NCBI GenBank assembly: GCA_002280565.1
Contig: NCEF01000020.1
Location: forward strand, 1 to 64,000
DNA: 64,000 bases
Direction of reading: 5' to 3'
DNA from: Sphingomonas sp. 32-66-10
Lineage (GTDB): Bacteria; Pseudomonadota; Alphaproteobacteria; Sphingomonadales; Sphingomonadaceae
A program made the position numbers and the translations under genes. Below the pieces are notes generated by a model that was not told the origin of the DNA, searched no databases, and saw only the letters and a program-made list of their open reading frames with translations. This document shows, in pieces, positions 45,846-58,620 of this stretch (position 1 is its first letter; every line of letters begins with the position of its first letter).

Positions 45846-45978
45846 ATCCTTCCCCGCAAGGGGAAGGTGGCGCCGAAGGCGACGGAGGGGGAGGACGGCT
45901 CTGCGGCCCCGGCTCAATCCGATCCCCTTCCTCCCCCTCCGTCAGTTGCGCTGACACCTCCCCCTGGCGGGGGAGGAT
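45846..45978. repeat. Inverted pair of 50-nt double-hairpin repeats (REP/BIME-like)
   Basis: Arm 1 is 45846-45895 (+), arm 2 is 45929-45978 in reverse, 33 bp apart. Each unit starts ATCCT(C/T)CCCC with a hairpin partner GGGG(G/A)AGG, then a second small hairpin, and ends ACGGAGGGGGAGGA. Differences between arms preserve pairing: T6-A19 in one is C6-G19 in the other, and the inner stems (CGCC/GGCG versus GTCAG/CTGAC) differ but still fold. Related units flank the DUF559 gene at 54841-55373. Confidence 0.85.
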
Positions 45979-54840: not shown

Positions 54841-54890
54841 ATCCTCCCCCGGAGGGGGAGGGGGACCGCCGAAGGCGGTGGAGGGGTAGC
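54841..54890 (+). repeat. 50-nt double-hairpin repeat, left copy
   Basis: Outer hairpin CCTCCCCC/GGGGGAGG, inner hairpin ACCGCC-GAA-GGCGGT, then GGAGGGGTAGC. The terminal GGAGGGG (54880-54886) lies 11 bases before the DUF559 ATG and could serve as its ribosome site. Confidence 0.85.
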
Positions 54891-54897
54891 TCACCAA

Positions 54898-55284
54898 ATG
54901 CTGCACGGCCCGAAGGAAACCCAGCAACGCGCAAAACACCTGCGCCGAACGATGAGCCTGCCCGAAATCACTCTGTGGCGCGAGCTGAAGAAACGCCCGA
55001 ACGGACTGCGCTTCCGCCACCAACACCCCGCCGGACTCTATATCCTCGACTTCTTCTGCCCCCGGTTCAAACTCGTCGTAGAGATCGACGGCGAGGCGCA
55101 CGAATATGGTGACCGCCCCCAGCGCGACGCAGCCCGCGATGGCTGGCTGCTGACCCAAGGGGTCCGCACGCTCCGTATCCCCGCTCAGGAAGTGCTGACC
55201 AACCTCGAAGGCGTCGTCCAACACATCGTCACGACGGCCCAAAACTCCTACCCCGGAGGGGGAGGTGGCGCCGCGATGCGGTGA
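54898..55284 (+). CDS. DUF559 (Vsr-like PD-(D/E)XK) endonuclease-domain protein
   Basis: A 128-residue protein. The DUF559 core reads AKHLRRTMSLPEITLWRELK, then GLRFRHQHPAGLYILDFFCP and LVVEIDGEAHEYGDRPQRDA, with the catalytic-type Asp in LDFFCP and Glu-x-Asp in VEIDG, and ends near GVRTLRIPAQEVL. This fold is shared with Vsr and some restriction endonucleases. The last ten or so residues (SYPGGGGGAAMR) and the stop are encoded by the downstream repeat. Its GC composition is close to its neighbours. The gene sits between two inverted repeat copies, which suggests it processes or moves those repeats. Confidence 0.88.
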   Translation: MLHGPKETQQRAKHLRRTMSLPEITLWRELKKRPNGLRFRHQHPAGLYILDFFCPRFKLVVEIDGEAHEYGDRPQRDAARDGWLLTQGVRTLRIPAQEVLTNLEGVVQHIVTTAQNSYPGGGGGAAMR

Positions 55285-55294
55285 CGGAGGGTAG
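55245..55294 (+). repeat. 50-nt repeat, variant copy overlapping the DUF559 3' end
   Basis: CTCCTACCCCGGAGGGGGAG leads into GGTGGCGCCGCGATGCGG and TGACGGAGGGTAG. It resembles the 45846 type (GGTGGCGCC, GACGGAGG) more than its left neighbour. It supplies the stop codon of the DUF559 gene (55282-55284). Confidence 0.75.
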
Positions 55295-55323
55295 CTTCGT
55301 CACGCGACGTCGCCGAGAGGAGA

Positions 55324-55373
55324 ACTACCCCTCCACCGGCTGCGCCGGTCCCCCTCCCCCTCCGGGGGAGGAA
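55324..55373 (-). repeat. 50-nt double-hairpin repeat, right inverted copy
   Basis: On the minus strand it matches 54841-54890 at 45 of 50 positions. The inner hairpin is ACCGGC-GCA-GCCGGT versus ACCGCC-GAA-GGCGGT, so a C-G pair has become G-C while pairing is kept. Confidence 0.85.
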
Positions 55374-55892: not shown

Positions 55893-56327
55893 ATGCCGAT
55901 ACCAGCAGCAAAAGCGATGCGCAGGCTATGCGAACTCAAGGATTGGAGCATCACCAACCTTGAGGCGCAGAAGCTCCTCTATTTCGCACAGATGATCGCG
56001 TTGGGTGAACACGAGAGGCCTCTAGTCTCAGGCACGTTTGAGGCTTGGGATTTAGGCCCGGTTCACCCTGACGCCTACCACAAGGCGAAGTTGTTTGGCG
56101 CGAAGCCGATCAAGCCTTTCATTTTCAAAACACGCGGCCCCATTCGGGAATGGGAAGGTGTTTTTGAGCGGACGCTAGACGTGTTTGGCGATCTTACCGG
56201 CGGACAACTCGTAGCGGAGTCTCATTGGGATCGTGGCGCATGGGCCGCGCATTATCGTCAGGGGGCAAAAGGGGTCGAAATCCCGAATGGAGACATCGCC
56301 AGAGAATACCGGGACCGGCTCCACTGA
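55893..56327 (+). CDS. Panacea-domain (SocA-like, DUF4065) protein
   Basis: A 144-residue protein with the Panacea signature: TNLEAQKLLYFAQMIALGEH, then VSGTFEAWDLGPVHPDAYHK. Family members such as SocA and GepA act as antitoxins or proteolysis adaptors, usually beside a toxin. Here the neighbour is a small membrane protein whose gene overlaps the 3' end, so an antitoxin-toxin pair carried by the IS is possible, but toxicity is unproven. The start is ATG 55893, preceded by a GGAACGGAGA stretch. Confidence 0.82.
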   Translation: MPIPAAKAMRRLCELKDWSITNLEAQKLLYFAQMIALGEHERPLVSGTFEAWDLGPVHPDAYHKAKLFGAKPIKPFIFKTRGPIREWEGVFERTLDVFGDLTGGQLVAESHWDRGAWAAHYRQGAKGVEIPNGDIAREYRDRLH

Positions 56328-56667
56328 TAACCTGCCAGCGGTAAGGCCCGCAGGGAATCTGACACGAGTTGAAAACGTCACGCCCGCAGATTTGCAGGTA
56401 GAGGCGCTTCAACGGCGCTTGGAGCAGTCGGAGGATCAACGAAAAGAGGAGCGCTTCTTGTGGTTCTCCTTTTCAGGATTGCTCCTCGTTTCACTGATCT
56501 ATGCAGGGGTTGGGGTCGCAGCGGGTAGCTTCGCCGGGATCATCTATGTCGCAATGGCGCTCGTGCTGAGCCGCCGCTGGGGTTTTGACGACCTTTTGGG
56601 TGCCCTACATGCGGCGAAAGAACTGTTCGGCCCGAAAAATGGCGGCAAGGATGACGAGGAAGCCTAG
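56287..56667 (+). CDS. Small two-helix membrane protein, IS passenger
   Basis: A 126-residue protein. After a polar N-terminus there is a coiled segment (ADLQVEALQRRLEQSEDQRK) and two adjacent membrane helices (LWFSFSGLLLVSLIYAGVGV and GIIYVAMALVLSRRW-type), then a charged tail ending KNGGKDDEEA. Start ATG 56287 overlaps the Panacea gene by 41 bp; a longer reading from 56233 exists. The overlap suggests co-expression, fitting a membrane-acting effector controlled by the Panacea protein. No homologue is recalled. Confidence 0.65.
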   Translation: METSPENTGTGSTDNLPAVRPAGNLTRVENVTPADLQVEALQRRLEQSEDQRKEERFLWFSFSGLLLVSLIYAGVGVAAGSFAGIIYVAMALVLSRRWGFDDLLGALHAAKELFGPKNGGKDDEEA

Positions 56668-56696
56668 CCAGTTCACATCGTCAAACCGGCATGGTG

Positions 56697-57692
56697 TCAC
56701 TTTCGCGGCAGCGTGAGGCGGTCCAGAAAGTCCAATTGGAGCTTTTCATCGAAGTGCGGATATGCGCGCTTCAGATGATCCTGGAAGGTCGACCAGTTAG
56801 GCGAGATGCGCATAAGCGCCTTCAGACCTTCAAGGAACTCCCGCAGCTTCGGATGGCCAACATGGTCGGAGAGCATCTGATGCAGTCGCACCTTGGGCCG
56901 CCCCTTGTCGTCGCGCGGAACGATACGCTGTATTTCAGCCAGAACGCCGGGGGCAAAGCGCTCATAGAAGTCGTTCGTCCACTTCCCGACGATTCCGGGA
57001 CGCTTCTTGATGGATTCCTCGGTGAAGTCCCACCCGTTTAGGCGGAAGATATTCATGTAGAGGTCGTCATCGAAGGTAAGCGCCCATGGCAGCGCTTCAG
57101 GGCTGACATACTCGCGAAGAACCTGCTCAAGCACCCGGCGGCGGTTGAGATCGCGAAAGCCGGTGGCTTCGTCGACGAGATCATTGATCGCTTTGTCAGT
57201 GAGCGCGCGTAGAAGCTGGGTGCAAGCCTTGGCGATATGCTCTTGGGTTGGCAGCAGCGCCCCAGCGAGCATGGCATCGTGATAGACCCAGCACACCGAA
57301 GGTAACAGGGTCGCACGATAGCCGAATGCGCGCACTCCCCGGCGCGTCTCAAAAACGATAGGTTCCGTCGACCTAATCAAGTCACTGGTAATAAACGGAA
57401 TAAGGTTCTTTGCGCGCAAAAATGGCGGCATCCCGTCGACCGTCGATCCCTCGCCCCCTTTTGCCTTTCCGGCTCGCCCGATGGATTTCAGGAAACCCTC
57501 TTGGGTCAGCACGCGCGTGTTGTGGATATCATCCAAAACCGCGCACGGGATTTCGATATTGCCCAAGGGCAGAAAGCCGTCGACCACCGCTGTAGGCACG
57601 GGGCCGGTAGTCGCAGGTGCACTTGCGGTCGACACCATGGATTTCGCCACATCGTCGAAATCAGCGTCGATCGGTTCGATATCCTTAGCCAT
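56697..57692 (-). CDS. P63C-domain protein, IS passenger
   Basis: A 331-residue soluble protein. The C-terminal half contains the P63C domain (REYVSPEALPWALTFDDDLY, MNIFRLNGWDFTEESIKKRP), known from phage and mobile-element proteins of unknown activity. The N-terminal part (IPCAVLDDIHNTRVLTQEGF, then SIGRAGKAKGG) resembles the antirepressor-like region usually found with P63C. Its ATG lies within the 3' end of the upstream transposase gene (8-bp overlap), so the two are probably co-transcribed. Confidence 0.85.
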   Translation of the reverse strand: MAKDIEPIDADFDDVAKSMVSTASAPATTGPVPTAVVDGFLPLGNIEIPCAVLDDIHNTRVLTQEGFLKSIGRAGKAKGGEGSTVDGMPPFLRAKNLIPFITSDLIRSTEPIVFETRRGVRAFGYRATLLPSVCWVYHDAMLAGALLPTQEHIAKACTQLLRALTDKAINDLVDEATGFRDLNRRRVLEQVLREYVSPEALPWALTFDDDLYMNIFRLNGWDFTEESIKKRPGIVGKWTNDFYERFAPGVLAEIQRIVPRDDKGRPKVRLHQMLSDHVGHPKLREFLEGLKALMRISPNWSTFQDHLKRAYPHFDEKLQLDFLDRLTLPRK

Positions 57693-58620
57693 GCGTTAGT
57701 TCCTTATAGGTGAGGCGCTTGCCCATCATGCGAGCGATGGTGCCTTCGATGAAAGCCATCGTGCCAGCTTGCGCGGTGTTGTGGCGGAAAGAGAACTCGT
57801 TGACGTAGCGGTGCAGATGCTTCGGCGACATGTAGTGATAGATGCCGTAGTGGCCGCGCTTGAGCAGCGCCCAGAAGCTCTCAATGCCGTTGGTGTGAAG
57901 GCAGTAGTGGCGGACATACTCGCCAGCGCCGTGATTGACGGTGTGGTGCGTAAAGCCCTTTGAGGTGAGGCTGCGATAGCCCGCGAACTCGTCGGTCACG
58001 ACCGTTGCGCCAGCGGGCGCGTTCGCTTCAATGAAGCCGACGAGCGTCTTGCCGGTGGTGTCTGCAACCGGCGTGGCGCGGACTTGATCGTTCTCGTCGC
58101 GGATGCCGACCACAGCCACCTTGCCGACGCCACCACGGCCCAGATGCTGACGTTTGCTCTCGTGCTTGTTCTTTTCCTTGCCGCCGATGAACGCTTCGTC
58201 GGCCTGCAAGTGACCGCCCATGTCGCCATCCGACGAACCGCCAAGCCACGTTTCGCGAATGCGCTGGGCGAGGAACCATGCCGACTTCTGGGTTACGCCC
58301 AGCTCGCGCGCCATCTGGGTCGAGGGGATGCCCTTGCGCGCGGTGGTCATCATGTAGATCGCCATCAGCCACTTGTGCAGCGGGAGGCGGCTTTCCGCTA
58401 GGACGGTGCCCGTGCGGACGCTGAAATGCTGGCGGCAGTCGCGGCAGCGATAGGGCATCGGCTTTTGGTTCTTGACCGGAGCGACCGACAGGCTGCCACA
58501 GTGGGGGCAGGAGACTTCGCCGTTCCAGCGGTTGCGCTCGAAATATTCCCGCGCCGCTTCCTCATTCGGGAACCGCTGGAAGAACTGGTAGAGGCTGACG
58601 GTTTCAGGCTTGCTGCTCAT
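57685..58620 (-). CDS. IS1595-family transposase
   Basis: A 311-residue transposase with an N-terminal zinc ribbon (VSCPHCGSLSV and YRCRDCRQHF) and a DDE/N-type ISXO2 domain. Visible catalytic-type elements are LQADEAFIGGKEKNKHESK, VVTDEFAGYRSL and CLHTNGIESFWALLKRGHYG, with the final HNTAQAG. Length is normal and no frameshift is seen, so the element may be active. The start lies 44 bp inside the right terminal repeat. Confidence 0.95.
   Translation of the reverse strand: MSSKPETVSLYQFFQRFPNEEAAREYFERNRWNGEVSCPHCGSLSVAPVKNQKPMPYRCRDCRQHFSVRTGTVLAESRLPLHKWLMAIYMMTTARKGIPSTQMARELGVTQKSAWFLAQRIRETWLGGSSDGDMGGHLQADEAFIGGKEKNKHESKRQHLGRGGVGKVAVVGIRDENDQVRATPVADTTGKTLVGFIEANAPAGATVVTDEFAGYRSLTSKGFTHHTVNHGAGEYVRHYCLHTNGIESFWALLKRGHYGIYHYMSPKHLHRYVNEFSFRHNTAQAGTMAFIEGTIARMMGKRLTYKELTHG

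Follow-up and report, generated by a model that had tools for sequence, protein, structure and literature searches.

A DUF559 nuclease gene bracketed by inverted BoxC-like palindromes in Sphingomonas sp. 32-66-10: a candidate mobile repeat system

The element described here lies in a 64,000-nucleotide stretch, hereafter the window, of contig NCEF01000020.1 of Sphingomonas sp. 32-66-10 (assembly GCA_002280565.1). It is a DUF559 nuclease gene between inverted, triplex-type palindromes that resemble the BoxC repeats of Escherichia coli. The initial annotation had placed this gene between inverted 50-nt units, and this holds: the two terminal units are identical at 45 of 50 positions, and the 128-aa product matches the DUF559 profile PF04480 with 96.2 bits against a curated cut-off of 20.6, the only further profile match being MTES_1575, below its cut-off. 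The protein is predicted to adopt a Vsr-like fold. The genome, an assembly of 2.68 Mb in 83 contigs that is 83% complete, contains two DUF559 matches. The features of the window are the following (G142 and G185 are related genomes).

54841-54890, plus strand: left terminal unit, with outer hairpin CCTCCCC..GGGGAGG, inner hairpin ACCGCC..GGCGGT and tail GGAGGGG directed inward
54898-55284, plus strand: DUF559 (PF04480) gene, 128 aa, with a predicted Vsr-type PD-(D/E)XK fold
55245-55294, plus strand: third unit, directed rightward, which contains the stop codon and codes for the C-terminal PGGGGGAAMR
55324-55373, minus strand: right terminal unit, inverted, 45/50 identical to the left unit
45846-45978, no strand assigned: gene-less inverted pair of a sister subtype, with a diverged copy in G142 and other DNA in its place in G185

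The 54-nt arms of the DUF559 element are 91% complementary. As initially described, the left unit supplies the GGAGGGG that precedes the ATG, 11 nt upstream of it, and the third unit supplies the TGA stop codon (55282-55284). The same GGAGGGG is the mirror image of the arm GGGGAGG (mirror score 0.88) and, judging from its base order, might act as the third strand of a triplex. Since the third unit is directed toward the right terminal unit, the two make up a 129-bp inverted pair in their own right (55245-55373). Differences between the copies preserve the pairing of the inner hairpin, as had also been proposed, the two variants compensating on both arms (ACCGCC-GAA-GGCGGT versus ACCGGC-GCA-GCCGGT). 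When the window's five units were folded as single-stranded DNA, z-scores ranged from -2.3 to -3.4 and equally good folds occurred in 0-6 of 200 shuffles; four of the five take the two-hairpin fold, and the unit at 45929-45978 has a different best fold. Our hairpin detector marked 10 places in the window, the five known units among them, versus 1-3 in each of five Markov-simulated windows. The gene-less pair at 45846-45978 exists as first reported, its units being only partly the same: they form a sister subtype with different tails (tggc...gacggaggggg versus gggacc...ggtggagggg at the ends of the DUF559 element), which also forms the ends of other DUF559 elements (loci L064, L065 and L078).

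The association of DUF559 genes with such units was scored on each side as a G-rich hairpin unit within 200 bp of the gene. Of the 119 family genomes, 102 have DUF559 matches. Among 31 family loci, namely two from the window's own genome and the best-scoring others, 27 have a hairpin on both sides, three on one side and one on neither; diverged units visible by eye in the flanks of L003, L005 and L029, which are not among the two-sided loci, were left uncounted. Taking every DUF559 match of five genomes of the genus added 25 loci, 18 with hairpins on both sides, three on one side and four on neither, all of these four being long open frames (363-1995 aa). The 28 best-scoring loci of the phylum comprise 15 with hairpins on both sides and 13 with one. 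The same detector found hairpins on both sides of none of 30 GIY-YIG genes (one side in two) and on either side of none of 25 Y1_Tnp genes. Hairpin density reaches 4.7-6.2 per kb near DUF559 genes versus 0.05-0.33 per kb more than 400 bp away at the same loci, 0.17 per kb beside GIY-YIG genes and zero beside Y1_Tnp genes. The initial annotation had named two grounds for abandoning its proposal, namely that relatives would lack the association or that unrelated genes would have the repeats beside them just as often; the association is present in relatives, and the repeats are not equally common beside the other genes. At 30 loci around addB, used as background only, 22 lack such a hairpin in about 4 kb, and two of the other eight contain the window element itself. 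Own flanks were also compared with flanks swapped between loci for inverted similarity, in 28 of the 31 DUF559, 13 of the 25 Y1 and 25 of the 30 addB loci. The 95th percentile of swapped flanks was exceeded in only 9 of 28 DUF559 loci, because units are similar between DUF559 loci as well; the corresponding counts are 10/17 for short GIY-YIG genes, 0/13 for long ones, 0/13 for Y1 and 0/25 for addB.

Unit subtype follows nuclease lineage. Left and right units are more similar within a locus than between loci (means of 0.69 versus 0.41 over 44 loci, not reached in 2000 permutations), and for 43% of these loci the partner unit is the single best match. Protein identity correlates with unit similarity (rho 0.41, 49 loci, 0/2000 permutations). 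Because many DUF559 loci share neighbours, the correlation was recalculated with one locus per shared site, giving a mean rho of 0.46 (24 loci, 0/10000 permutations). Indeed, 13 of 50 loci fall into a single transitive cluster of flanking genes that extends across genera (L001, L006-L010, L012, L013, L019-L021, L027 and L028) and represents a recurrent or very old intergenic site; the gene downstream is one that we take to be dihydrolipoamide dehydrogenase. Genome G091 contains six or more unit subtypes, each at the ends of its own DUF559 copy, and its paralogues L066 and L073, at different sites, have one subtype in common. On this sequence pattern, the units appear to belong to the DUF559 gene rather than to the site.

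Gene-less copies are abundant. One hairpin pattern gave 82 forward and 78 reverse matches in G091, each palindrome being counted on both strands (about 80 hairpins), versus none for the reversed pattern, and nearly all of these lie away from DUF559 genes. Only 3 and 1 matches to it occur in the window's own genome, where the units belong to another subtype. Forty sites away from DUF559 were sampled from the listed matches in G091; at 28 of them two hairpins lie at most 200 bp apart and form an inverted pair. The G-rich tails point inward in 28 of 31 G091 pairs, as they do at the ends of DUF559 elements. Compared with pairs at other sites, a pair has a best match of 58 to 88%.

The comparison of orthologous places, suggested at the outset, revealed both filled and empty sites. 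G185 (94% identical over the start of addB) has the window element at the orthologous position, and the element is absent from G142 (93%), where the place holds one unit of another subtype and where none of the six DUF559 matches lies at the orthologous position. An orthologue search with 13 elements returned at least one orthologous place for each; junctions were compared for seven of them, the window element and L078, with L080 and L083 outside the detailed reading. Locus L063 of G185 corresponds to a 21-bp intergenic stretch in G142 (L146) and to a different inverted pair in G000, L074 of G185 to an 11-bp stretch in G142 (L150), and L001 of G000 to a short unit-free stretch in G142 (L143). 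At the place of L075 (G142), G000 has a gene-less pair and G185 another repeat; at that of L068 (G185), G142 has a single hairpin. Other DNA occupies the places orthologous to L062, L067 and L078, for L078 in both relatives, and L071 and L072 are orthologous filled sites. A second palindrome family, CACCCCGGACTTGTTCCGGGGTCCA (L145, L153), was also noticed, as an inverted pair in G000 and as a solo copy in G185, in both cases at a place where a relative has a DUF559 element.

The units have a described counterpart. According to PMC4666352, the intrastrand triplex motif (TM) of E. coli, earlier called BoxC or PIT, is present in 23 copies in MG1655, five inverted pairs among them always joining a type A and a type B unit, and its sites vary strongly between strains. 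BoxC-type repeats have been known from E. coli since the 1990s and, as triplex motifs, from over 260 genomes (PMC4666352), but had not been linked to an enzyme. In the sphingomonad units a pyrimidine arm, a purine arm and a mirror-image purine tail follow one another as in the published motif, and the units share with it the intergenic position, the occurrence as solo units or inverted A+B pairs and the instability between strains. They differ in that BoxC/PIT/TM repeats are described in that text without an enzyme (its authors, in 2015, state that they never found mobility activities near TM sites), and in that many subtypes flanking DUF559, the window's included, have a further hairpin within their second loop. 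The tail matches the mirror of its own arm better than that of other units (0.947 versus 0.862, 91 units, 0/5000 permutations), the values for a direct copy being 0.903 and 0.866; in 61 units with asymmetric arms the mirror scores above the direct copy in 33, below it in four and equally in 24. A third purine strand that mirrors the purine arm is therefore seen at the level of base order, with the triplex itself a predicted structure.

The strict TM consensus has no match in the window, whose subtype carries the extra hairpin; other unit subtypes of the genus do match it. Across 299 genomes the strict pattern occurs in 62, the reversed control pattern giving one match. Genomes with DUF559 were divided by hand into 80 with strong and 28 with weak matches (best E 6.8e-8 to 8.8e-4). 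With strong matches, 46 genomes have both, 34 DUF559 only, 16 TM only and 203 neither (odds ratio 17, p 3e-19, genome relatedness not removed); leaving out the window's own family gives 38, 29, 16 and 203, and using all 108 DUF559 genomes gives 49, 59, 13 and 178 (odds ratio 11).

In E. coli MG1655 the annotated DUF559 gene ycjD (1351407-1351760) lies about 170 bp from an exact TM motif at 1351204-1351239. This is no. 9 of the 23 and the only one between 0.63 and 3.04 Mb in the table of PMC4666352. The ycjD region is covered to at least 80% in 3362 of 5426 E. coli genomes; two records compared for an empty ycjD site gave no clean junction, as fabI is followed there by other genes before the next shared one. 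K-12 and one O157:H7 record carry TM pair 1+2, between hrpB and mrcB; it is absent from three E. coli strains, which are 102 bp shorter at this place. In E. coli 98E11 (L235) the pair has collapsed to a single hairpin composed of the outer halves of both units, which may be one way for pairs to give rise to solo units; 22 of the 60 matches listed for the hrpB-mrcB pair are two-piece ones of this kind.

The arrangement recalls the systems of repetitive extragenic palindromic sequences (REPs), in which REP-associated tyrosine transposases (RAYTs) are linked to paired palindromes (REPINs). As outlined in PMC3116915 and PMC3733652, these too have a small gene of the nuclease type between inverted palindromes, inverted doublets without the gene and solitary remnants in other places, and a separate palindrome class for each enzyme lineage, all of which recur here; doublets are also at least as frequent as solo palindromes, as judged from the 28 pairs in the 40 sampled G091 sites. 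The differences are that no Y1 HUH transposase lies between the palindromes, its place being taken by DUF559 with a predicted Vsr-like PD-(D/E)XK fold, that none of 92 units has a GTAG or CGTC head, and that the units carry a purine third-strand tail. CGTC REPs are reported without a dedicated transposase in PMC3733652; GTAG and CGTC REPs were rejected as an identity for the present units on account of their heads. A miniature inverted-repeat transposable element (MITE) with its parent insertion sequence likewise joins an autonomous gene copy to short gene-less copies with inverted repeats; here there is neither a DDE nor a HUH transposase, and the ends are hairpin units. Finally, unlike Vsr and the Vsr-like homing endonuclease I-Bth0305I, the DUF559 gene stands alone between inverted palindromes: it is no intron endonuclease and, unlike E. 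coli vsr, does not adjoin a cytosine methylase.

The best reading is a system of the REP/REPIN kind in which a Vsr-fold nuclease takes the place of the Y1 transposase, as the initial annotation had suggested. It rests on the two-sided and specific association, the match between lineage and subtype, the abundance of gene-less pairs, the filled and empty sites, and the Vsr-like fold prediction. Since the gene lies between inverted foldable repeats and the same pairing recurs in relatives across the phylum, the nuclease likely copies the repeats; by analogy, DUF559 would likely spread the palindromes and their gene-less inverted pairs, in the way assumed for RAYT transposases and REPINs. We consider it quite probable that DUF559 is, in some form, the mobility enzyme of the flanking palindromes. 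On the route that we infer to be the most likely, units exposed as single strands, for example on the lagging strand, would fold into a hairpin or an intrastrand triplex. The DUF559 protein, made from a copy between two units, would nick the foot of a folded unit. The segment flanked by two inverted units would then be copied, by repair or template switching, to a different intergenic position. On gene-less pairs the DUF559 enzyme would act in trans, and solo hairpins would be leftovers after the loss of one unit of a pair.

Three other explanations were weighed against this one. DUF559 might behave as a homing-type nuclease: it would cleave the unoccupied allele at a fixed intergenic site, and homologous recombination would then copy its gene in, with palindromes that are part of the element or of its target and do not move by themselves. 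The neighbours shared among DUF559 loci fit old inheritance or homing as well as they fit transposition. We hold homing to be unlikely, since several DUF559 copies occupy unrelated sites in one genome, paralogues at different sites share a unit subtype, and the gene-less pairs dispersed over the genome are not a product of gene homing. It is just as doubtful, if not slightly more so, that DUF559 is a host repair gene captured or tolerated between palindromes which another enzyme or replication slippage spreads. This account would accommodate the Caulobacter DUF559 protein VsrA, which behaves like a factor of the Vsr type linked to a cytosine methylase (PMC12907096), and the 16 of 62 strict-TM genomes without a strong DUF559 match. 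It is opposed by the two-sided association, specific when compared with GIY-YIG and Y1_Tnp genes, and by nuclease lineage and unit subtype going together. Y1_Tnp, moreover, occurs in only 21 of 119 family genomes and was not found in the window's own 83%-complete genome. Spread by RAYT as the main driver was rejected for this low occurrence and because none of the 25 Y1 loci has a unit beside it. That the hairpins are immobile and serve only as terminators or translation signals of the DUF559 gene is very improbable: the GGAGGGG before the ATG and the stop codon within the third unit agree with it, but the roughly 80 one-pattern hairpins of G091, the predominance of gene-less inverted pairs among its sampled sites and the presence or absence of elements at orthologous places do not.

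Several observations nevertheless weigh against DUF559 as the mobility enzyme. Neither cleavage nor movement was observed. The family and phylum loci were chosen by best score and do not form a random sample, and shared ancestry is not fully removed by the permutation tests. Target-site duplications were sought at seven sphingomonad sites and none was readable, the empty sites being 7-15% diverged, and the junction of E. coli TM pair 1+2 is not a simple target-site duplication. The E. coli units beside ycjD do not bracket the gene as those of sphingomonads do. The 16 TM genomes lacking strong DUF559 matches, 13 of which remain when weak matches count, include G353 (130 motifs, 87% complete) and G270 (41 motifs, complete), and a relaxed DUF559 search of eight such genomes gave only fragments, in three. 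Conversely, 34 DUF559 genomes lack the strict TM motif; these may carry other subtypes, as the window does.

Two observations stand beside these results. Short stand-alone GIY-YIG genes (at most 160 aa; L087-L116) often lie between other inverted palindromes, such as CCGTTCGTCCTGAGCTTGTCGAAGGACG or GTCATTCCCGCGAAGGCGGGAATCC, and in G185 (L239) a gene, presumably GIY-YIG judging from its motif, lies between repeats of this type where the window has the gene-less pair 45846-45978. To the right of the DUF559 element (55893-58620), the gene order of the window is unlike that of relatives, and the open frames there resemble what we take to be a DUF4065-type protein and an IS1595-type transposase.

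Full-text literature searches, with most subscription papers outside their reach, returned no paper joining DUF559 to such repeats. Chances seem even that DUF559 proteins are the missing mobility enzymes of BoxC/PIT/triplex repeats throughout Pseudomonadota, in REP-like systems whose Vsr-fold nuclease would recognise a DNA hairpin-triplex independently of Y1 and DDE transposases, with stand-alone GIY-YIG nucleases perhaps acting likewise for other palindrome families. If so, the role of a REP transposase can be filled by a nuclease of the Vsr type. A nuclease accompanying BoxC-type repeats allows tests of their spread and of how unstable their sites are, and it provides a candidate role for DUF559, a family of unknown function that includes E. 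coli YcjD.
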